This document shows, one piece after another, positions 5,938-16,951 of a stretch of 64,000 bases of DNA. Made by a program: the position numbers and the translations under genes. Source of the DNA: Acidobacteriota bacterium (lineage in GTDB: Bacteria; Acidobacteriota; Terriglobia; Terriglobales; Acidobacteriaceae); contig JAJYBU010000018.1 of the NCBI GenBank assembly GCA_021778845.1, positions 1 to 64,000 of the forward strand, written 5' to 3'. The stretch's first letter is position 1; the number at the start of each line of letters is the position of its first letter. The notes below the pieces were generated by a model, which ran no database searches, was not told the DNA's origin, and saw only the letters and a list, made by a program, of their open reading frames with translations.

Positions 5938-6666
5938 TTAGAAGTAGCCGAGCAGTTCCGCGAAGCTGCCGAGTTCCATCAGTTGCACGTCTCCGGCTGG
6001 CGAATCGACGACCTCGTGCTCGAGGACCCAGGTGAAGTCGTGAGGGATGAAGATTGCGTTGATCCCTGCTGCCATCGCGGGGTTGATGTCCGATCGCGGC
6101 GAGTTGCCGATCATCCAGGTCGAGGCAGGATCGCACTGGTGGCGCGAGGCTATATCGCGGTAGGCCGCGGGATTTTTTTCCGCGAGCACCTCGACGGCGC
6201 TGAAGAAAGGCCGCAGTCCGGAACGTTCGAGCTTGTCGGTCTGTTCGAGCAGATTGCCCTTGGTGACCATGATGAGCCGGTGGCGCTGCTGAAGGTCGCT
6301 CAGCGTTGTGTCTACTTCAGGGAGAAGCTCGATCTCGTTGGCAGCAATCGCATCGGTGAAGGAGATGATGCGTGCGTGGCGCTCGGGAGTGATGGGCAAG
6401 TCGCTGAGATGCTCGAAGCAGTCGATCAGCGACCGCCGGAAGCTATGCACCCCGTACCCGTGCGCGGCAATCGTGGCCCGCTCGCATGCGTTGAGATGCT
6501 CGCGAACCTCCTCGGCGGTATGGACCTGGTGGTCGAGGTAGGAGATGAACGCGGTGATCGCGCGCTCGAAGTAAATGTTGTTTTCCCACAACGTGTCGTC
6601 TGCATCGACGAGCAGTGTCTGGCGGGAGAGGCGCGTGCCCGGTGGTGGCGTCGGAATCAAACTCAT
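5938..6666 (-). CDS. HAD-superfamily hydrolase
   Basis: This 242-residue protein carries all four HAD motifs: the nucleophile motif D-A-D-D-T near residue 21, V-T-K-G-N (motif II), the conserved Lys in E-K-N-P, and G-N-S-P-R-S-D (motif IV). A helical cap follows motif I, as in subfamily I phosphatases. The substrate cannot be read from sequence; phosphoglycolate-like or nucleotide phosphatase activity is typical of the group. It lies alone on the minus strand between convergent and unrelated genes. Confidence 0.85.
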   Translation of the reverse strand: MSLIPTPPPGTRLSRQTLLVDADDTLWENNIYFERAITAFISYLDHQVHTAEEVREHLNACERATIAAHGYGVHSFRRSLIDCFEHLSDLPITPERHARIISFTDAIAANEIELLPEVDTTLSDLQQRHRLIMVTKGNLLEQTDKLERSGLRPFFSAVEVLAEKNPAAYRDIASRHQCDPASTWMIGNSPRSDINPAMAAGINAIFIPHDFTWVLEHEVVDSPAGDVQLMELGSFAELLGYF

Positions 6667-6876: not shown

Positions 6877-9800
6877 TTAGAAGTTAATCCTGCCCGCCAG
6901 TTGGATATCGCGCGAGTTGTTCGATTGGCCGCTGATCTCGCCAAAGTTGCTCGAATCCATGTTGGTGGAACTGATGCCGAAGAGCACCTTGTTGGTAAGG
7001 TTGTACACCGACGCGTCCAGCAGCAGATTGACATTCTTGTAAATGTTGATGGTCCGCTTCAGGCTCATGTCGATGTCGTAGCTGCCCGGTCCACGCAGTC
7101 CAAACGCTGCGGTGCGTGGAATAGTCCCGAACGTGAAGGGCGCAGCGTCTGCAAAGGACGTGGCGTCGATGTAGGAAGGTGAAGCCAGCCCCGCCAGCGC
7201 TCCGTGGCCATAGCTGCCGTTGATGCGCGCGCCTTTGGCAGCCGGGTTGTAGTTCGGCATGCAAGTACCTGCGAACGGCGTGTTGCAGGCTGAGGACGTG
7301 ATGGCGAGCGGGTTGCCAGCGCGGTACGTGTAGATACCGGAGACCAGCCAGTCGCTTACCAGTGCACGCACCACGGAGTTGCCGCCGCCCAGCGCGTGTC
7401 CCTTGCCGAACGGCAGGTTGTACACGGTGGTGATGTTGAGCGCCTGCGGGGTGTCAGCAGTTCCGCGCGAGTGCTCGACGCTGTTGGGCAGGTAGCCGCT
7501 GCGGAAGGTACCTCCATCGTCGTACTCATGCGAGTAGGTGTAGTTCAACATGAATTGCAGACCATGAGACATGCGCTTGTTCAACGTCATCTGGAACGCG
7601 TTGTAGGTGGAGTTGACGACGTTGCCATAGGTATCGCCCACACCGTTGTACTGAGGGAAGGGGCGCAGCATCTGCCCGATCGTCCCGGAGAACGTGGAAT
7701 AGGGCAGCTTCACCGCAGGGTTGATTGCCTGCGCCGCCGCGATGTTTGTGGTGGTCGCTTTCGCGGTGAGCAGGCTGCCTATGTTGTAGAAGCTGGGGTC
7801 AACCTGATCGTTGTAGATGCCGCGGGCTCCGCTGCCACCGGTGGGAAGGAAGTGCCCCTCGCTGCCTACATAGTTCAGGCTCACGGTCAGGTTGTGGCTC
7901 AACTCCCGCTCTACGCCGACGTTCCAGTTGATGGCATAGGGTGCGCGCGCTCCAATGACCGGGTCGCCGTAGCTCACAGAGGCCGCAGACGTGTTGACGA
8001 GCGTGGAGAAGCCCGTGCCATAGGCGGAGTTGATGAATGGCGGTGCCTGATAAGCAGGGAAGCCGTCATCCAGCACAAACGCCGCGATACCGCTGTTGCT
8101 GGAGCTCTTCGGGTTGGGGCTGGCCGTGTAACCAAGCTGGCCGGTGCCAAGCCGCGTCGCGTTGGAGATGCCGGTGCCATGGGTGTAGCTGATGGTGTAA
8201 CCGGCGCGGAGGACCGTCTTGTTGTTGATGGAGTATGCCAAGCCGATGCGGGGGCCGAAGTTCTTGTACCAGTTGTGCACCGGCGTGCTGCAGTTACAGC
8301 CGTAGGGGCCGTTGCCAGCAAACTGCAGTGCTCCTGCATTCCCTGTGATGGGATTGGTCATCGTCGGGTTCAGAAAGGAGAAGCGGTTCTCCACTTCGGT
8401 AAACGAGGGGAAGTAGTCCCAACGCAGGCCCAGGTTCAGAGTCAGCTTGGGGGTTACGGCGTAGTCGTCCTGCGCGTAGGCCGAGAAGGGACGGATGCGC
8501 GCCCCAGTTGTCAGCACAGCATTCTGCACCAGTTTGGACTGGTCCACCTGCCCCAGAAGGAAGCTGGCATAGGAGTCGCCCGTGTTGGTCAGCAGTTTGC
8601 CGCTGGAGTAGCCGGCGGTTTCCGCGTTGCTGTAGTCCAGTTCCAGCGGTGCTGTTCCGGTAAGGTACGCAGTGTTGTTGTCCTGCAGCCATTGCCGGAT
8701 GAAGCCGAATGTGAACGAGTGCTTACCATGCACGTACTGCACATTGTCCAGCAGGTCATAGGTGTTGGTGGTTTCGGTGTAGGCCTTGCCGCCGCCCCAC
8801 GCGGTGATGGAGTTCGGGCCGCCGAACTTGGCCGTCGGGAAAGAGTCCGCCACCTGTCCGGCAGGAAGTCCGGTAACGCCAGCAGCCGAAACGAGGCCGT
8901 ACGTCGGGTTGTATCCGGGGTTGCCCACCAGATCGTAATAGCGGATGAAGCCCAGCTTGAACTGGTTCACCAGGTTGGTCGTCGGCACATAGGTGTGCTC
9001 GAAGATGAAAGTCTTCGTCTTGGGTGTGTAGAACTGACCATCGGTGTACGGCAGCGAAATCTGGCTGCCTTTGCTCAGGTAGCCATAGACGCCGCTCTTG
9101 CTGGCAGCGAAGATGACTGAGATGCGCTGCTTGCTGGTGAGCACAGCATCAACCTTGTCCGTTGTGTTCCAGCTGAACGTGTTCGTCGGAATCTGACCAA
9201 GATAGTTATTGGTCAACGAATTATTTGTGGGGAGTGGCATGAACTGAAGCAGTGCCTTCTCTGCGGGTCCGATGCGTGCCGGGTCAAAGCTGTTCTCCAC
9301 TCCATTGAAGATGGCCTGCTGGCGCGTGCAGTTCTTTCCGCCGGTGCAAACCGTTGTAGCAGGGTCATAGATAAGCTGGGTAGCTGGCAGGTCGCTGAAG
9401 TTGCCTGTCCGCTCCAGCATCGTGGGAACCGTATAGTATCCCGGATTCCCTGCCTTGTCATAGCGGTACCCATCGTAGGCGCCGAAGAAGAACACGCGAT
9501 CCTTCACGATCGGAGCCCCCAGGCGCATGCCGTACTCATTCTGGTGCTCCACTGGCTTCGTAGCCTTGCCTGTGGCTGGATTGATGACTGCAGGAGCACC
9601 CCATCCCCAGGTGTCCAGGGCCGTGTTGCGGAAGTACTCAAAGATCGATCCGTGGATAGTGTTCGTACCTGACTTTACAACGTAGTTCTGCACGCCTGCG
9701 CCCTGATACTCCACAGGTGTTGCGCTGGTGAGCACCTGAAACTGGTCCACAGCCTCAACCGAAATGGCCGAAGATACATTGCGCGGATCGCCCTGGATGG

Positions 9801-10479
9801 AGATGCGCGTGATCGGCACACCGTCCACGTAGATTTCATCAAGACGACCCTGGCTGCCGGTTCCGTTGAACACGCCCGATGCTCCTGACTTGCTGGCTTG
9901 CGTCACGCCAGGCATCAGATACACAAACGACGTCGGGTCACGCGGTCCGCCGTTCATCTGCAGCGGTAATGAGGTGTAGGCCTGGTTCTCAAGCGTTCCT
10001 CCCAGTGTGGCGCTCGCAGTATCAAGCTGCGGCGGCGCGCTGGTCACCGTCGTCATCTCGGCCGCCGAGCCCACCGAGAGCTTCATGTTCAAGCCGACCA
10101 CCTGCAACGCGTCGACCGATACATTGTCTTGCGTCAGGGTCTTGAAGCCCTTCGCCTCGATCGATACGGAATAGATGCCCGGAGGGACTGGAGACAGCAC
10201 GTAATATCCGCTGGAAGTGGTGGTCCTGACCGTCTTCACTCCGGTTGCTACATCTGTGCCGGTTACCTTTGCCCCGGCAACGACGGCCCCAGTCGGGTCG
10301 GTCACCGTGCCGTTGATAGATCCCTGTCCACCAACCTGAGCCTGCGAGTGATTCGGCATGGCTAGTGCCGCCACCATCAGCAGCAGGGCCGCCATCGCCC
10401 TGCCAAAATAATTTCTGATGCGCTGCGCGTCTGCGATTGCAGATCGCGCTGCACATCTGTGCTTGAGAAAAAGCTTCAT
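6877..10479 (-). CDS. TonB-dependent receptor with carboxypeptidase-regulatory-like domain
   Basis: This 1200-residue outer-membrane protein is of the Oar-like type expanded in Acidobacteria. A long basic N-region, a hydrophobic core (about residues 29-41) and A-Q-A form a signal peptide cleaved near residue 48. A CarboxypepD_reg beta-sandwich follows (about 54-130, with G-T-V-T-D-P-T-G-A-V and P-P-G-x-Y). After it come a plug domain and a large barrel ending in the C-terminal Phe typical of outer-membrane proteins. The ATG at 10479 lies 9 bases after AAGGAG; an in-frame GTG two codons upstream is less well placed. It is preceded by a 280-base leader and a LacI-type operator shared with the pectin operon. 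Import of pectin oligosaccharides is therefore likely but inferred. No SusD partner is seen. Confidence 0.88.
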   Translation of the reverse strand: MKLFLKHRCAARSAIADAQRIRNYFGRAMAALLLMVAALAMPNHSQAQVGGQGSINGTVTDPTGAVVAGAKVTGTDVATGVKTVRTTTSSGYYVLSPVPPGIYSVSIEAKGFKTLTQDNVSVDALQVVGLNMKLSVGSAAEMTTVTSAPPQLDTASATLGGTLENQAYTSLPLQMNGGPRDPTSFVYLMPGVTQASKSGASGVFNGTGSQGRLDEIYVDGVPITRISIQGDPRNVSSAISVEAVDQFQVLTSATPVEYQGAGVQNYVVKSGTNTIHGSIFEYFRNTALDTWGWGAPAVINPATGKATKPVEHQNEYGMRLGAPIVKDRVFFFGAYDGYRYDKAGNPGYYTVPTMLERTGNFSDLPATQLIYDPATTVCTGGKNCTRQQAIFNGVENSFDPARIGPAEKALLQFMPLPTNNSLTNNYLGQIPTNTFSWNTTDKVDAVLTSKQRISVIFAASKSGVYGYLSKGSQISLPYTDGQFYTPKTKTFIFEHTYVPTTNLVNQFKLGFIRYYDLVGNPGYNPTYGLVSAAGVTGLPAGQVADSFPTAKFGGPNSITAWGGGKAYTETTNTYDLLDNVQYVHGKHSFTFGFIRQWLQDNNTAYLTGTAPLELDYSNAETAGYSSGKLLTNTGDSYASFLLGQVDQSKLVQNAVLTTGARIRPFSAYAQDDYAVTPKLTLNLGLRWDYFPSFTEVENRFSFLNPTMTNPITGNAGALQFAGNGPYGCNCSTPVHNWYKNFGPRIGLAYSINNKTVLRAGYTISYTHGTGISNATRLGTGQLGYTASPNPKSSSNSGIAAFVLDDGFPAYQAPPFINSAYGTGFSTLVNTSAASVSYGDPVIGARAPYAINWNVGVERELSHNLTVSLNYVGSEGHFLPTGGSGARGIYNDQVDPSFYNIGSLLTAKATTTNIAAAQAINPAVKLPYSTFSGTIGQMLRPFPQYNGVGDTYGNVVNSTYNAFQMTLNKRMSHGLQFMLNYTYSHEYDDGGTFRSGYLPNSVEHSRGTADTPQALNITTVYNLPFGKGHALGGGNSVVRALVSDWLVSGIYTYRAGNPLAITSSACNTPFAGTCMPNYNPAAKGARINGSYGHGALAGLASPSYIDATSFADAAPFTFGTIPRTAAFGLRGPGSYDIDMSLKRTINIYKNVNLLLDASVYNLTNKVLFGISSTNMDSSNFGEISGQSNNSRDIQLAGRINF

Positions 10480-10543
10480 GGTCACTTACTCCTTGAGTGC
10501 TTCTGATCGATAGCCCAGATCGATGGGGTTATGGTCCTTGTCA

Positions 10544-10569
10544 TTGCCAGCCTGTATACGGGCTGGCAA
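10544..10569 (-). promoter_or_regulatory. 26-bp near-perfect palindrome in the receptor leader
   Basis: TTGCCAGCC and GGCTGGCAA flank an inner palindrome GTATAC, leaving one mismatched pair across 26 bases. In the leftward mRNA it makes a 9-bp stem about 65 bases before the receptor start. There is no U-run, so it is not a standard terminator. It could be a regulator-binding site or an mRNA-stability hairpin. The rest of 10480-10740 holds only a short TCCCC/GGGGA hairpin (10621-10635) and no gene. Confidence 0.5.
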
Positions 10570-10740
10570 ACCTGTTACGCCAAGGGCGAAGCATGTGTGA
10601 GAGTGTCGCGACCCGCTCGATCCCCACAGAGGGGACTCCTTACTGGTCAGACCACTTTTTAAACCGCTTCACGCCATTCACCACGGCTGCACATCTATAA
10701 ACGTCATTTGTTCCAGTCCGTGGTAACGCGTTTGGATACC

Positions 10741-10756
10741 TTGGCAACGTAGCCAA
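10741..10756 (-). promoter_or_regulatory. LacI-type operator upstream of the receptor gene
   Basis: TTGGCAACGTAGCCAA is a 16-bp palindrome with the central CG expected of LacI-family operators; 7 of 8 positions in each half are symmetric. It matches TGGCAACGTTGCCA at 12007-12020, in front of the pectin operon. It lies just downstream of the predicted start point, where a bound repressor would block transcription. Confidence 0.72.
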
Positions 10757-10768
10757 ACAGCCAGCCGA

Positions 10769-10798
10769 ATATTAGACCGGCGAAGGAGCCGTCGTCAA
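10769..10798 (-). promoter_or_regulatory. Predicted promoter of the receptor gene
   Basis: Read leftward, TTGACG (10798-10793) is separated by 18 bases from TAATAT (10774-10769). Transcription would begin near 10762 and run into the operator at 10756-10741. The boxes match 5 of 6 and 4 of 6 consensus bases. The same -35 hexamer and spacing occur in front of the polygalacturonase gene. Confidence 0.55.
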
Positions 10799-10873
10799 TA
10801 GCTAGATTTCAAAGGGGGAAAATGGGGCCTTGCCGTCCGATGTGGATTTGCATGCGTGCTCGGAAAAGCTGCT

Positions 10874-11893
10874 CTAATGTCTCCGGGGCGCGATGGGCTT
10901 GCACCCACACGAGGTGCGAAGGATCATCTTTCCCGGCAAAACCACCTGCACAGGTTTCTCGTTCACCCCCGCCGTGCGGCGGAGCAATTGCTCCACGGCC
11001 AGACGGGCGAGTTGCTCGGCTGGTTGTGCGACGGCGGTTAACGAAGGATTGAGGAAACTGGCAAACTCCATGTCGTCAATCCCGATGAATCCAATCTCGT
11101 TCAGCGCAATTTTGCAATCCTGCAACGCGGAGAGGATCGCAATCGAGACTGAGTAGCTCATGGAGAGAATTGCGGTTGCGGGTCCCCGTTTTCGCTGAAG
11201 CGCAAGGCTGAGTTCGCTCCGAAGCTGCTCAGTGTCCCGCCAGATGATCGTCTCGGCTGTCCTTCCAGCCGCGTCCATCGCCTCTTTGTATCCCTTCAAC
11301 CGGTTCTGCAGCGGATGCAGTTTGTAATGCGCCGTGACCGAGACGATATGAGAGTGATGATGTCCCAGCAGGTGTTCGGTAGCTTCGCGGGCTGCCTTGT
11401 AGTTATCGAGCACTACGGAGTCAACCGCGCTGCCGAGCGAACGATCGATCGCAACCACTGGAATAGTCCCAAGCAGGGCGCGCACCTGGGCCACATTCGT
11501 CTCTGCTGCCGGCACCAGAATGACCCCGTCGACCTGGGATCGTTTGAGCGATGCAAGTTGCTCCTGCTGCAACTTCGGTTCCTCTTGATGGGTGAGCAGC
11601 ATGACCGTAAACCCGTGTCTTCGTGCCTCCATTTGAATGGTGCGAATCGCGTTGCCGTAGAAGACATTATTGACGTGTGGAAACAGAACGCCAAGCGTCT
11701 GAGTGCGTCCCACGCGAAGGCTCCGCGCCAGCGTATTCGGTTCGTATCCCAGTTGTGCGATGGCAATCTCGATCCGCCGCGCCACCTCGGGGCTTACCGA
11801 CTTTCCGCCGCGTACATGGCGGGAAACCGTGGATGATCCGACCTTTGCTGCGCGCGCCACGTCGATGATCGTTGGGCGCTTGATCTCATTCAT
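10874..11893 (-). CDS. LacI-family transcriptional regulator of pectin use
   Basis: This 339-residue regulator has an N-terminal LacI helix-turn-helix (about residues 6-26, T-I-I-D-V-A-R-A-A-K-V and S-S-T-V-S-R-H-V). The hinge helix follows (Y-E-P-N-T-L-A-R-S-L-R), then a periplasmic-binding-protein-like effector domain (T-L-G-V-L-F-P onward). The ATG at 11893 begins directly before the HTH; the frame is open 29 codons further but that segment is hydrophobic and not family-like. It has no strong ribosome-binding site. It sits between the receptor gene and the divergent pectin operon, both bearing matching operators. It most likely represses both until a uronate-type inducer binds. The ligand is not determinable here. 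Confidence 0.9.
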   Translation of the reverse strand: MNEIKRPTIIDVARAAKVGSSTVSRHVRGGKSVSPEVARRIEIAIAQLGYEPNTLARSLRVGRTQTLGVLFPHVNNVFYGNAIRTIQMEARRHGFTVMLLTHQEEPKLQQEQLASLKRSQVDGVILVPAAETNVAQVRALLGTIPVVAIDRSLGSAVDSVVLDNYKAAREATEHLLGHHHSHIVSVTAHYKLHPLQNRLKGYKEAMDAAGRTAETIIWRDTEQLRSELSLALQRKRGPATAILSMSYSVSIAILSALQDCKIALNEIGFIGIDDMEFASFLNPSLTAVAQPAEQLARLAVEQLLRRTAGVNEKPVQVVLPGKMILRTSCGCKPIAPRRH

Positions 11894-11966
11894 GCTGAAC
11901 GATACTAACAGGAGAAAGTACGGAAGAGCACAAACGAGTTTTTTGAAGATTAAACCTGCGCGAGCC

Positions 11967-11996
11967 TTGACGGAGGTCAAGCAGCGTTGCTAGCAT
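11967..11996 (+). promoter_or_regulatory. Predicted promoter of the pectin operon
   Basis: TTGACG (11967-11972), an 18-base spacer and TAGCAT (11991-11996) would start transcription near 12003. One operator-like site lies in the spacer and another just past the start point. The layout copies the receptor promoter. Confidence 0.55.
11980..11991 (+). promoter_or_regulatory. Secondary LacI-type half-matched operator in the promoter spacer
   Basis: AGCAGCGTTGCT has the central CG and is symmetric at 5 of 6 positions per half. Its centre is 28 bp from that of the main operator. It overlaps the region between the -35 and -10 boxes and also faces the regulator gene, so it could serve autoregulation. 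Confidence 0.4.
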
Positions 11997-12006
11997 CGGG
12001 TGGTTA

Positions 12007-12020
12007 TGGCAACGTTGCCA
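12007..12020 (+). promoter_or_regulatory. LacI-type operator of the pectin operon
   Basis: TGGCAACGTTGCCA is a perfect 14-bp palindrome with central CG. It lies just downstream of the predicted start point and 36 bases before the polygalacturonase ATG. It is nearly the same as the site in front of the receptor gene. Confidence 0.75.
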
Positions 12021-12056
12021 CGATTCTTGCGCAAAACTCCCTGGAGCAACAATCCC

Positions 12057-13310
12057 ATGAAGCAACACGATTTCATGCAATGGTCGATGTCGAAGGTACT
12101 TCCACTGATGGTTTGCTCAATCCTTGCGGTCGGTGCAGGTGCGCAAACGGTTTGCAATGTGCGTCAGTACGGAGCCAAGGGAGACGGAATCGCCAAGGAT
12201 ACCGCGGCCATTCAAAAGGCAATCGACGTCTGCGCAAGCAAAGGCGGAGGAACGGTGGTGTTGGATGGAGCCCCGATGTTTGTCTCGGCACCCATCCTTC
12301 TCAAAAGCCATATCACCCTGTCGATCGCCGCGGGGACGACTCTTGCAGGCAGCACCGATCATGCGGACTATCCCGATAAGCAGGAGTTCAATGACCGCGG
12401 GAAGCAGGCGCTGATAACGGCGACCAATGCTGAGGACATTACGATCGACGGCGGCGGAGTTATCGACGGTCGTGGAGCATCCTGGTGGCTCAAGCCTTTC
12501 GAACCGCGGCCGCGCCTCGTTGTCTTCGACCACTGCAAGCACATAATGATGCAGAACATCACGGTGAAGGACTCGCCGATGTGGCAGATCGTGCCGTACT
12601 ACTCAGACGATCTGACGTTTCGCAATATGCAAGTGCTGGGGGCGCTGCACTCGCATAACACCGATGGCATCGACCCATTCTCTTCCTCGAACATCGTGAT
12701 CGATCATGTCACCATTGATACCGGAGACGATAACATCGCGATCAAGAGTGGCCAGCCCGGATCGCCCGGTCCCGACGCTCCTTCGCGCAACATCGTCATC
12801 ACCGATTGCACCTTCCTGCGCGGACATGGTCTGTCCATCGGCAGCGAGATTGCCGGCGGTGTGCAGAACGTTCGCGCCGAGCGCATCACCTTCAAGTCCA
12901 CCGACCAGGGGATTCGCGTCAAGGCGAACCGCGATCGTGGCAACGCCGATATCGGCAACTTCGTATTCCGCGATATCACCATGGAAGACGTCAGAACGCC
13001 GATTCTGCTCAGCGAGTTTTATCCGAAGATTCCGCCGACGATCGTCGCCGAGAACGTGACGCGACTAACCCCGTTCTTTCACGACATCACCATAGAGAAC
13101 GTCACGGCAACGGGAGCCCGGCAGGCCGCCGTCATTGTTGGATTGCCGGAGTCGCCCATCCGCAATTTGAAGTTGATCAACGTTCATTTAGCAGGACAGC
13201 ATGGCGCAACGATCCAGTATGCAGACGTTACCGCCAAAGACTTCACCGTCAAGGCCGAGGAGGGTGAGAACATCCAGATCGGCTCCGGCGTCAATGGATC
13301 GCTAAAGTAG
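12057..13310 (+). CDS. Exported polygalacturonase (GH28)
   Basis: This 417-residue beta-helix enzyme hydrolyses alpha-1,4-galacturonan. All GH28 signatures are present: N-T-D-G at about 201-204, G-D-D at 223-225 (the catalytic Asp set), G-H-G at 256-258 and R-V-K at 287-289. A hydrophobic stretch ending G-A-G-A-Q (about residues 13-30) is a signal peptide, so it acts in the periplasm or outside. The ATG at 12057 follows GGAG by 10 bases. Frames opening at 12000 or 12006 would run through the operator and are rejected. It is the first gene of a five-gene operon, 17 bases from the methylesterase. Confidence 0.93.
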   Translation: MKQHDFMQWSMSKVLPLMVCSILAVGAGAQTVCNVRQYGAKGDGIAKDTAAIQKAIDVCASKGGGTVVLDGAPMFVSAPILLKSHITLSIAAGTTLAGSTDHADYPDKQEFNDRGKQALITATNAEDITIDGGGVIDGRGASWWLKPFEPRPRLVVFDHCKHIMMQNITVKDSPMWQIVPYYSDDLTFRNMQVLGALHSHNTDGIDPFSSSNIVIDHVTIDTGDDNIAIKSGQPGSPGPDAPSRNIVITDCTFLRGHGLSIGSEIAGGVQNVRAERITFKSTDQGIRVKANRDRGNADIGNFVFRDITMEDVRTPILLSEFYPKIPPTIVAENVTRLTPFFHDITIENVTATGARQAAVIVGLPESPIRNLKLINVHLAGQHGATIQYADVTAKDFTVKAEEGENIQIGSGVNGSLK

Positions 13311-13327
13311 GGAATTGAGGATTATCG

Positions 13328-14320
13328 ATGTACTTCACTCTTCGTTCAGTGATCGTGGCAGCAATGCTTACTACTGCGGCAGCAAGCGCGCAGGATGTGA
13401 ACGTCCGCGTGTCGCCCGATGCGCCGCGAAACTTCGAGAGTACCGATCTCTTCCCGACAATCCAGATGGCGCTCGATCACGCTCCGCAGCCCGGCCCGGG
13501 CGGACGCGTGTATCTTCACATAGCGCCGGGCATTTATCATGAGCGAGTGATCGTAACCCAGAATCGGCCCCGCACGACGATGCTCGGAACGGGAGCAACT
13601 CCAGCCGACGTTGTGATCACGGCGTCGCAGAACGCGAAGAGCGCTGGTGGCACCTTCTTTTCCTCCACGGTCGAGATCTACGGGCCCCAGTTTGAGGCCG
13701 ACAATATCACCTTTGAGAACACGGCGGGAAATACCGGACAAGCCGTTGCGATCACCGTGCGGTCTGACCAGTCAGTATTCAAGAAGTGCCGTTTTCTGGG
13801 CGATCAGGACACGCTGTTTGCCGATTTCGGAAGGCAATACTACGTTGACTCGTACATCGAAGGCGGCGTTGACTTCATCTTTGGCAATGCTGCCGCTGTC
13901 TTTGACAACAGTGAAATCCATATCATTCGCCCGGGTTATCTGACGGCACAATCCCGCACCGCGTCCGATCAAACCACGGGATACGTCTTCCTGCATGCAC
14001 GGATTACAGCGGCAGATCTTGGCGGCAGAGAGTTCTTCCTTGGCCGTCCCTGGCGCTCGTTCTCGCGCGTCGTGTTTCTGGATTCGGAGATGCCGGCAAG
14101 TTTGAGTCCGCAAGGATGGACGCCCTGGTCGAAGGGTGCATCCCTTCAGGATGCGTTCTACGCGGAGCGCGGCAGCACCGGACCCGGTGCTCGAGTGGAT
14201 TCGCGGCTCCCGGGTACCCACCAACTGAGCGCAGGTGAGGCGGCACGGTTCATGCCAAATCAGTTCCTTGCAGGGTCTGACCACTGGAATCCCCTCGCGG
14301 AGGCTGCCCGCCTGCCATGA
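13328..14320 (+). CDS. Exported pectin methylesterase (CE8)
   Basis: This 330-residue enzyme removes methyl esters from pectin, making galacturonan available to the upstream GH28. CE8 motifs are clear: G-Q-A-V-A (137-141), G-D-Q-D-T with catalytic Asp161, D-F-I-F-G with nucleophile Asp182, and L-G-R-P-W-R (238-243). A short signal peptide ends A-S-A-Q near residue 22. GAGG lies 7 bases before the ATG. It is followed by 86 bases with a palindrome before the next gene. Confidence 0.93.
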   Translation: MYFTLRSVIVAAMLTTAAASAQDVNVRVSPDAPRNFESTDLFPTIQMALDHAPQPGPGGRVYLHIAPGIYHERVIVTQNRPRTTMLGTGATPADVVITASQNAKSAGGTFFSSTVEIYGPQFEADNITFENTAGNTGQAVAITVRSDQSVFKKCRFLGDQDTLFADFGRQYYVDSYIEGGVDFIFGNAAAVFDNSEIHIIRPGYLTAQSRTASDQTTGYVFLHARITAADLGGREFFLGRPWRSFSRVVFLDSEMPASLSPQGWTPWSKGASLQDAFYAERGSTGPGARVDSRLPGTHQLSAGEAARFMPNQFLAGSDHWNPLAEAARLP

Positions 14321-14406: not shown

Positions 14407-15669
14407 ATGTCGAAAAGACTCATACTTCCAAAATTTTCTGTTGGCGTAGGCGACAGGTTTGTCCACCAGGCTAAGGCGCAATTAGCGGCGTGCATCCAGG
14501 CCGCCGAAGCTGGGGTTGAAGTGATTCCCGTGTGGAACAAGAGCAATCGTGAGCACATGATTATCGGAACTGAGCCGAGTCAGACGCGAGTAGCCGCCGA
14601 TGCGGCGGTAAAGACGCTGGGATGGAAGCGGCCCTACTTTGTCGACGCCGATCACATTAACCTCAAGACGGTGGAACGCTTTCTGGAGCCCTGCGATTTC
14701 TTCACGCTCGACGTAGCGGATGAGATCGGTAAGGAGGCCAAGCCGGAGGATGTGGATGCATTCGTCGCGCGCCATCCCGAACTGATTGGTGAGGTGCGGA
14801 TTCCGCGCATCGCGGAACCGTTCAAGACAGATGCCATCTTCGTGCGCGCCGTTGCGAATAAGTTCCTGGCTGCGGTGCAGGATGCGGGCAACATTTACCG
14901 CCTCATCGTGGAGCGCAAAGGAGAGGGCACGTTTGTGCCTGAGATCTCTATGGACGAGACCGACGCTCCGCAGACGCCCGTGGAGTTGCTGATTATCCTT
15001 GCTGCGATTGCCGACGAGAAGATTCCCATCCAGACGATTGCGCCGAAGTTTACCGGGCGATTCAACAAGGGTGTGGACTACGTTGGCGACGTCGCTCAAT
15101 TTACCCGGGAGTTCGAAGAAGATCTCGCTGCCATTGATTTTGCGGTGAAGCGCTACGGCCTGCCTGAGAATCTGAAGCTGAGCGTGCACTCCGGCTCCGA
15201 TAAGTTTTCTATCTACAAGGCAATTCACGAAGCGGTTGTGAAATTTGATGCAGGCGTGCACGTGAAGACGGCCGGCACCACCTGGCTTGAAGAAATTATC
15301 GGTCTGGCTGAAGCCGGAGGAGGCGGACTGGAGATTGCGAAAGAGGTCTATCGTGAGGCCTTTGCCCACGCCGAGGAGCTCTGCAAACCGTACGCCACGG
15401 TGATAGATATAGACTATGCGAAGCTCCCCAGCCCGGAGGTTGTCGATGGCTGGACGAGCGAGCAGTACACCTCGGCGCTGCGCCACGATCAGAGCAATGC
15501 AGCGTATAACCCCAGCTTCCGGCAGTTGCTGCACGTCGGCTTCAAGGTGGCGGCAAAGATGGGCGATCGATATCTCAACGCACTTGACGCCAATGAGGAG
15601 ATCGTAGCGCGCAACGTGACAACTAACCTCTACGAGCGGCATATTCGGCCGATTTTCATAGGACGATAG
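14407..15669 (+). CDS. uxaE: Tagaturonate/fructuronate epimerase, UxaE type
   Basis: This 420-residue cytoplasmic enzyme resembles the UxaE family first assigned in Thermotoga. UxaE interconverts D-tagaturonate and D-fructuronate and so joins the galacturonate route to the glucuronate route. Recognised features are the start L-P-K-F-S-V-G-V-G-D-R-F, the segment V-W-N-K-S-N-R-E-H, and F-V-D-A-D-H-I-N-L-K-T-V. The role fits its place after the pectin depolymerases. GAGGAG lies 6 bases before the ATG. Two bases separate it from the gluconokinase. Assignment is from motif memory and context. Confidence 0.78.
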   Translation: MSKRLILPKFSVGVGDRFVHQAKAQLAACIQAAEAGVEVIPVWNKSNREHMIIGTEPSQTRVAADAAVKTLGWKRPYFVDADHINLKTVERFLEPCDFFTLDVADEIGKEAKPEDVDAFVARHPELIGEVRIPRIAEPFKTDAIFVRAVANKFLAAVQDAGNIYRLIVERKGEGTFVPEISMDETDAPQTPVELLIILAAIADEKIPIQTIAPKFTGRFNKGVDYVGDVAQFTREFEEDLAAIDFAVKRYGLPENLKLSVHSGSDKFSIYKAIHEAVVKFDAGVHVKTAGTTWLEEIIGLAEAGGGGLEIAKEVYREAFAHAEELCKPYATVIDIDYAKLPSPEVVDGWTSEQYTSALRHDQSNAAYNPSFRQLLHVGFKVAAKMGDRYLNALDANEEIVARNVTTNLYERHIRPIFIGR

Positions 15670-15671
15670 CG

Positions 15672-16163
15672 ATGATTGTTGTGCTGATGGGAGTCAGCGG
15701 GTCAGGGAAGACGACCATTGGAACGCGGCTGGCTGAGCGGTTGCACACCGTGTTCGCCGATGCGGACAGCTATCATTCGCCAGCCAACAAGGCGAAGATG
15801 GCCTCGGGCCAGCCGTTGAACGACGCTGACCGGCAACCATGGCTGGAGACGCTGAACACACTGCTCCGCGGGTGGTTCGAAGGCAGGCAAGGCGGCGTGC
15901 TCGCGTGCTCGGCGTTGAAGGACGCTTACCGCAAGACGCTGGTGCACGAGCTGCCGCCAGATGCGGTGGTCTTTGTCCTGCTCGATGGCTCGAAGGAGCT
16001 TATCGCGGAACGTCTGGCCGAGCGGCAGAATCACTACATGAACCCGAAGCTGCTCGATAGCCAGATGGCAACACTGGAACCGCCGTCGGATGCGCTGAGG
16101 ATCGTCAATGATCGCACGCCAGACGAAGTGGTGGATGAGATTATGAAGCACCTGAACGCGTAA
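15672..16163 (+). CDS. gntK: Gluconokinase (GntK family)
   Basis: This 163-residue P-loop kinase has Walker A G-V-S-G-S-G-K-T-T at about residues 7-15. The family stretches A-D-S-Y-H-S-P-A-N-K-A-K-M and G-Q-P-L-N-D-A-D-R-x-P-W-L follow, then the lid segment R-L-A-E-R-x-N-H-Y-M. It phosphorylates gluconate to 6-phosphogluconate. In a uronate operon it may handle gluconate-like acids made by the following dehydrogenase. Its length matches GntK (about 160-175). It lies 2 bases after uxaE and 11 before the SDR gene. Confidence 0.88.
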   Translation: MIVVLMGVSGSGKTTIGTRLAERLHTVFADADSYHSPANKAKMASGQPLNDADRQPWLETLNTLLRGWFEGRQGGVLACSALKDAYRKTLVHELPPDAVVFVLLDGSKELIAERLAERQNHYMNPKLLDSQMATLEPPSDALRIVNDRTPDEVVDEIMKHLNA

Positions 16164-16174
16164 TAGGAGACACG

Positions 16175-16951
16175 ATGGCATCGAAGTTGTTCGACCTGGC
16201 AGGGAAGTCCGCGGTAGTGGTAGGAGGGACCTCAGGTATTGGTCTCGCCATGGCAATTGGTCTGGCCGAGGCTGGTGCGGATGTGGTCGCAACCAGCCGC
16301 CGTGCTGAGCAGGTTGCTCAGGCCGCGACCGCGATTGAGGCTGCAGGCGGACGGGCGCTGAGGCTCACCTCCGATGTGGCCGACCGCGCCAGCCTGGAAA
16401 GACTCTGCGCGGAGACGATCGCGGCATTCGGCAAGGTCGACATCCTGATTAACTGCGCTGGCAAGATCAAGCGCGCTCCCACGGTGGACTTTCCCGAAGA
16501 TGAGTGGCAGTCGATTATGGATACGAACGTCACCGGCACGTTGCGCTCCTGCCAGATATTTGGCCGGCATATGCTGGAGCGAGGCTATGGGCGGATCATC
16601 AATATCGCTTCGCTGAATACGTTTGTAAGCCTGAAAGAAGTGACTGCGTACGCCTGCTCGAAGGCCGCCGTCGGAGCGCTCACCCGGTCGCTCGCCGTGG
16701 AGTGGAGTGCGCAGGGTGTGACGGTCAATGCGATTGCGCCCGGAGTCTTTCGCACCGCGCTGAATCAGAAGCTGCTCGACGAGAGCGAGCGCGGCAAGGA
16801 ACTGCGCATGCGCACGCCGATGAACCGCTTTGGAAAGACCGAGGAGTTGGTTGGCGCCGCGATCTATCTTGCTTCGGATGCGAGCACCTTCGTGACTGGA
16901 GAGATCCTGGTGGTGGATGGTGGTTTCCTTGCGAGCGGAGTGAATCAATAG
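16175..16951 (+). CDS. Short-chain dehydrogenase of sugar-acid metabolism
   Basis: This 258-residue NAD(P)-dependent SDR has G-G-T-S-G-I-G (about 17-23), N-C-A-G, and the catalytic Ser plus Y-A-C-S-K. Overall it resembles gluconate 5-dehydrogenase, KduD and Bacillus-type fructuronate reductase, which are hard to separate by eye. Next to uxaE, a fructuronate-to-mannonate reductase role would complete the pathway step. Next to gntK, a ketogluconate reductase is equally possible. AGGAG lies 6 bases before the ATG. It is the last gene before a strong terminator. Confidence 0.82.
   Translation: MASKLFDLAGKSAVVVGGTSGIGLAMAIGLAEAGADVVATSRRAEQVAQAATAIEAAGGRALRLTSDVADRASLERLCAETIAAFGKVDILINCAGKIKRAPTVDFPEDEWQSIMDTNVTGTLRSCQIFGRHMLERGYGRIINIASLNTFVSLKEVTAYACSKAAVGALTRSLAVEWSAQGVTVNAIAPGVFRTALNQKLLDESERGKELRMRTPMNRFGKTEELVGAAIYLASDASTFVTGEILVVDGGFLASGVNQ

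Follow-up and report, generated by a model that had tools for sequence, protein, structure and literature searches.

When a gene for a LacI-family regulator stands between an outer-membrane receptor gene and an operon for pectin breakdown, the question is whether this one protein controls both of its neighbours, and through which sites. Such a locus lies in the stretch of 64,000 nucleotides that was analysed here (the window), which comes from a contig of a bacterium of the Acidobacteriaceae. A preliminary description of this DNA had proposed one LacI-type regulon for pectin uptake and breakdown, in which the receptor, the operon and possibly the regulator itself are repressed. The features of the locus are as follows.

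5938..6666, minus strand: HAD hydrolase (Pfam and neighbourhood comparison)
6877..10485, minus strand: gene for a TonB-type outer-membrane receptor, 1202 amino acids, with CarboxypepD_reg, Plug and OMP_b-brl_4 (Pfam)
10742-10755, no strand: predicted receptor-side operator TGGCAACGTAGCCA, which reads TGGCTACGTTGCCA in the direction of the receptor gene; centre at about +14.5
10769..10798, minus strand: receptor promoter, with -35 TTGACG (10798-10793), an 18-bp spacer and -10 TAATAT (10774-10769); kept in alignments
10874..11893, minus strand: LacI-family regulator (P0001), 339 amino acids, with LacI and Peripla_BP_3 (Pfam); 10 orthologues
11902..11910, minus strand: likely lacI promoter, an extended -10 TG-T-TAGTAT that ends 8 nt before the ATG; no overlapping operator
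11967..11996, plus strand: operon promoter, with -35 TTGACG (11967-11972), an 18-bp spacer and the extended -10 TGC-TAGCAT (11988-11996)
12007-12020, no strand: predicted operon-side operator TGGCAACGTTGCCA, a perfect palindrome; centre at about +11.5
12057..13310, plus strand: GH28 polygalacturonase-family enzyme (domain search)
13328..14320, plus strand: CE8 pectinesterase (domain search)
14407..15669, plus strand: UxaE tagaturonate epimerase (domain search)
15672..16163, plus strand: GntK/IdnK-type sugar-acid kinase (NCBIfam TIGR01313, above cut-off)
16175..16951, plus strand: SDR oxidoreductase

The lacI gene sits between the receptor gene on the minus strand and a tight plus-strand operon with the order GH28-CE8-uxaE-gntK-SDR. 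Models for gluconate 5-dehydrogenase, KduD and mannonate oxidoreductase all match the SDR protein below their cut-offs, and we infer that it is a fructuronate reductase. The regulator matches PF00356 with 48.5 bits (cut-off 27) and PF13377 with 76 bits (cut-off 26.5); it has the LacI helix-turn-helix and the periplasmic-binding-protein-like effector domain of the family, and a CG-centred even palindrome lies near the promoters of the linked catabolic genes. Among the 18 NCBIfam models listed, one of which (RbsB) is no regulator, none reaches its cut-off, and the best score for the LacI subfamilies (RbsR, CcpA, PurR, GntR and others) is 177.4 bits against a cut-off of 382. The closest sequences with a solved structure are a ribose operon repressor and the glucose-resistance amylase regulator, which we take to be CcpA.

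Near-identical, CG-centred palindromes do flank the lacI gene as first described, and they are rare both in the window and in the genome. They differ from the 16-mer TTGGCAACGTTGCCAA by 1 and 2 mismatches. A scan of the window for this 16-mer with up to 3 mismatches gave 3 matches where 0.15 are expected, a number that 0 of 100 shuffles reached; the third match lies at 7613 (7614 in the genome scan), within the receptor gene. The receptor-side palindrome has a mismatch in one half-site, and TGGCAACGTTGCCA occurs without mismatch only once in the 3.77-Mb genome, at 12007-12020. Both palindromes are also found just downstream of the TTGACG-N18-TAATAT and TTGACG-N18-TAGCAT promoters that had been named, at distances of 13 bp (receptor) and 10 bp (operon). 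In the direction of the target genes, the receptor unit is TTGACG-N18-TAATAT-N13-TGGCTACGTTGCCA and the operon unit TTGACG-N18-TAGCAT-N10-TGGCAACGTTGCCA, the latter with an extended -10. A promoter scan of 10400-12200 returned these two promoters and one other match, with 1.1 expected (sd 1.1), so the promoter assignment rests on conservation and not on the scan. If the last base of the -10 is set to -7, the operator centres come to about +14.5 and +11.5, which, measured from these predicted start sites, is the position of a steric block. The operon-side value is like that of lac O1, which is centred at about +11.

We consider it very probable that both palindromes are operators of the repressor that is encoded between them, and that this repressor controls the receptor and the pectin operon. 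When no pectin-derived uronate signal is present, the repressor would cover two sigma-70-type promoters from about +5 to +21 and would thereby block transcription of the outer-membrane receptor and of the GH28-CE8-uxaE-gntK-SDR operon. A uronate or an intermediate (presumably galacturonate, tagaturonate, fructuronate or KDG) would release the repressor, and uptake and breakdown would then be switched on together. The lacI gene itself would have a separate, near-leaderless promoter, and these sites probably do not repress the gene.

The sites beside orthologous regulators, on whose conservation the proposal hinged, are kept in 10 of 10 loci. In 398 genomes of the family, orthologues of the regulator (67-80% identity) occur in 10 other genomes, all of the same genus, and a second search in 28 genomes of the genus found the same 11 genomes with an orthologue and none further. 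The ten fall into clade 1 (G279, G214, G329, G321 and G259) and clade 2 (G226, G301, G273, G116 and G291). The operon-side operator has a counterpart in all 10 loci, and the receptor-side operator in each of the 5 loci with an adjacent receptor, at near-fixed spacing. Both operators are present in 5 of 5 clade-1 loci; in clade 2 the available stretch has no receptor beside lacI, and one perfect operator precedes the pectin/uronate genes (5/5). The HAD hydrolase, whose gene often follows the receptor gene or, in clade 2, lacI, is an unproven candidate member of the regulon. In the alignments the -35, the -10 and the operator form conserved islands, while spacers and leaders have diverged. The shared geometry is TTGACG, 17-18 bp, TAnnAT and then the operator, with a gap between -10 and operator of 13 bp at the receptor (16 in G226) and of 9-11 bp at the operon (13 in G116). 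The operon copy of G116, with TTGACT as its -35 and 13 bp between -10 and operator, is therefore missed by the strict composite pattern described below.

In four of the five clade-2 genomes, which have no adjacent receptor, the module instead precedes a distant receptor gene. These genes were reached via the operator pattern (G226 contig C180, G116 C126, G273 C309 and G301 C212), and the encoded receptors are 39-40% identical to the receptor of the window. In the fifth genome, G291 (88% complete), the operator search gave its one site only and no receptor with a site. On G273 C309 and G301 C212, two complete promoter-operator modules stand in tandem before one receptor gene, 139 bp apart (L092:4029-4224 and L093:6085-6280). 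In three of the five clade-2 genomes (G226, G273 and G301), a site also precedes the likely start of a distant GH28 gene, with the start judged by the signal peptide; in G226 and G273 the site falls inside the extension of the open frame. These sites come with no clear TTGACG module, and the distant GH28 gene of G116 has no site.

The preliminary description had also allowed for repression of the regulator by itself. Here, the LacI protein would repress its own gene via the operon-side operator, which lies 113 bp upstream of the lacI start, and according to the available text of a comparative genomics study, 72% of LacI-family regulators are autoregulated (PMC4052901). Upstream of lacI, TG-N-TA[CG][CT]AT ending 8-9 nt before the ATG is present in 6 of 6 clade-1 loci including the window, so that the lacI transcript (promoter region 11894-11910) seems to be near-leaderless, judging by the predicted start. 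In clade 1 there is no operator on this conserved extended -10, and in clade 2 the distance from operator to lacI start, about 495-590 bp in four genomes but about 4.9 kb in G301, is not conserved. Both observations count against autoregulation, which we regard as unlikely.

The same description had pointed out a further imperfect site within the operon promoter. This sequence, AAGCAGCGTTGCTA (11979-11992), exists, with 4 mismatches and a chance of about 1% for the best of 40 positions, but it is not conserved and was rejected as an operator: at the 10 orthologous loci, even the closest counterpart in the 50 bp before the operon operator differs by 6-8 mismatches. What is conserved at this place is TTGCTA, a part of the extended -10 that is shared by 11 of 11 operon promoters. 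Of the single regulon first proposed, the inclusion of the receptor and the pectin operon is strongly supported by the footprinting of 10 loci, by the distant receptors and by the way in which regulator and module occur together; there is no such support for the third site or for autoregulation.

The operators are not symmetrical in their conservation. In a survey of 23 sites from the genus (12 receptor, 11 operon), chosen with at most 1 mismatch, the promoter-distal half GTTGCCA is intact in 23/23, and deviations occur only at positions 1 and 5, within the proximal half. Perfect operators are found in 1 of 12 receptor and 6 of 11 operon sites. Of the distant-GH28 sites, which are outside the 23, two are perfect and the one of G301 deviates in the distal half, counter to the rule; in other genera, the rule fails in G194, G388 and G356. 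The receptor gene beside lacI also differs between loci. The window and G214 have a receptor of type A, and G279, G329, G321 and G259 one of type B, which is about 26% identical to the receptor of the window. The regulators of these last four genomes form one supported group (97/98), and promoter and operator are kept under both receptor types. On the simplest reading the receptor gene was apparently replaced once, presumably from type A to type B, while the promoter before it was retained. A type B receptor is also found in the cluster of G285, which has a weaker homologue of the regulator.

In the six clade-1 loci, window included, the operators are spaced across lacI by 1265, 1267, 1277, 1266, 1257 and 1214 bp. 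These spacings are in helical phase, with a resultant of 0.89 at 10.5 bp per turn, and in this post hoc test P is 0.003 for the six values and 0.011 for four length classes. Among periods of 5-30 in steps of 0.25, 10.5 is the best. The differences in spacing amount to about -5, -1, 0 and +1 helical turns. The agreement in phase may be chance among relatives, or both sites may act together. In the latter case one repressor assembly could bridge both operators and loop out lacI, which would add co-operative repression to simple blocking. That two operators lie on one molecule in 6 of 6 clade-1 loci and share their relative helical phase is consistent with such a loop. However, the phase test is post hoc and covers six related loci, absolute phase cannot be known at such length, clade 2 has a single local operator, and over more than a few hundred bp helical phase should make little difference. 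We consider a loop quite improbable. A broader suggestion, which we put forward tentatively and think somewhat doubtful, is that the receptor operator is detuned, that promoter and operator form a portable cassette under which unrelated receptors can be swapped (as from type A to type B) or which is doubled (as in the tandem modules of G273 and G301), and that the flanking operators, being in phase, act together. If this were true, leaky expression of the receptor would allow pectin fragments to be sampled while the enzymes are not yet fully on.

Repression of both targets by the neighbouring LacI protein, our preferred reading, can be checked by the distribution of the module. The composite pattern TTGACG-N30-42-GGCNACGTTGCC was scanned in the 398 genomes, together with a reversed control. 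It has 22 matches in 11 of 11 orthologue-bearing genomes, every one of them upstream of the receptor or the operon; the 387 genomes without an orthologue have another 22 matches, in 22 genomes; the reversed control has 7 matches across all 398. Fisher's test for this co-occurrence gives p = 2e-13, which ignores relatedness and is a guide, not a probability. Among the 22 other matches, that of G194 precedes the receptor gene of the cluster in which this genome has its weaker lacI homologue, and that of G297 is on the same contig as its weaker homologue. For the operator with at most 1 mismatch there are 41 matches against 9 in the control in the 11 orthologue-bearing genomes, and 10 against 13 in 15 genomes of the same genus without an orthologue; two further genomes of the genus, which have a 42-44% identical homologue and are outside both counts, have 4 against 1 (G285) and 9 against 0 (G297). 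We assign 17 of the 41 matches to lacI loci, 6 to distant receptors, 3 to distant GH28 genes, 3 to the beginning of a further GH28 coding region and, in G279, 1 to the first uxaE codons; 11 are left, close to the number in the control.

The recognition helix VG[SAP]STVSRH is common to all 11 orthologues and is found in 0 of the 8 other LacI-type proteins of the window genome. Ten homologues with 42-47% identity have VG[AP]STVSR followed by C, H, Y or F, or VSPSTVSRY (G285), and three of them (G194, G166 and G189) have exactly VGASTVSRH. Since such weaker homologues in other genomes have similar sites nearby, and three of them this helix, the motif is not read by this orthologue alone. It is nevertheless very unlikely that the palindromes belong to some unlinked regulator, be it a different LacI-type protein or one for global catabolite control, and that the neighbouring lacI plays no part. 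In favour of such a reading, the motif also occurs near other LacI proteins and the window genome has 8 other LacI-type genes. Against it, the helices of these 8 differ, and the operator is in excess where the orthologue is present and at control level in the 15 genomes of the genus without it.

In the window genome itself the regulon looks local. With up to 2 mismatches the 14-mer has 28 sites and its reversed control 19. The 28 include both operators and one site in the receptor gene; the 25 others were inspected. Of these, 24 are inside predicted reading frames (from a crude frame caller), the exception, L208, being about 230 bp before an open reading frame. The sole suggestive extra site is C61:100002, at the start of a second GH28 gene. 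The uxaC gene lies on a different contig, and the 19 kb around it contain no site at up to 3 mismatches. UxaC and UxaE are present, and no UxuA mannonate dehydratase was found in the window genome (89% complete); another dehydratase may substitute for it, or the incompleteness of the genome may account for its absence. As uxaC has no site and no UxuA-type gene was found, the regulon does not span the whole pathway.

The site at the second GH28 gene (L086:6003-6016, that is G000:C61:100002) is a one-mismatch operator inside codons 18-23, and in the window genome the gene adjoins a divergent receptor-like gene. Counterparts are found at L096:1829, L100:5591 and L108:3087, the last with two mismatches. 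The bases GGCTACGTTGCC are kept in four of the five regulator-bearing genomes compared (G000, G116, G259 and G321, where the final base of the 14-mer differs) and are absent from G214. They are kept in 0 of 6 GH28 orthologues from genomes without a regulator orthologue (G158, G236, G306, G188, G201 and G297, the last of which carries a weaker regulator homologue). This site is possibly an intragenic operator, on a comparison of genomes that are few and related.

The kind of sugar switch is well known. As far as the available text of Ravcheev et al. 2014 (PMC4052901) goes, LacI-family operators are as a rule CG-centred even palindromes, more than 75% of the sites lie 140-30 bp upstream of start codons, and the uronate regulators of the family include the groups ExuR, KdgR, UxaR and UxuR. 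The locus resembles the local LacI sugar regulons described there, with CG-centred even palindromes near the starts of catabolic genes and a regulator that adjoins its targets. It differs from them in its lineage ("Acidobacteria" occurs 0 times in that paper's text), in showing no sign of autoregulation, and in receptor-side operators that usually have one imperfect half-site. In Bacteroides, UxaR, KdgR and UxuR are LacI-family uronate regulators as well, and the layer of pectin polysaccharide and SusC/D is run by other regulators (HTCS), according to the part of the Bacteroides study available (PMC3878776). The likeness to these regulators is one of family and pathway (uronate catabolism); here, unlike in Bacteroides, one LacI-type protein is predicted to cover the receptor, the pectinases and the uronate enzymes. 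No paper was found on this regulon or on a LacI operator in Acidobacteriota, as judged from brief descriptions and not from full texts. The acidobacterial regulon is a new example of a known switch, and it gives these common soil bacteria a concrete, footprint-supported regulon. Its targets can be predicted genome by genome, as with the distant clade-2 receptors that were found through their operator, and it seems that an outer-membrane receptor was swapped while its regulation stayed.

Last, the receptor gene has a leader of about 250 nt. An Rfam search of this leader gave no match at the gathering threshold, and the leader as a whole has no clear folding advantage over shuffles (z -1.33; 24 of 200 shuffles fold equally well). 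Within it, at 10540-10580, there is a perfect stem of 9 bp, TTGCCAGCC...GGCTGGCAA.
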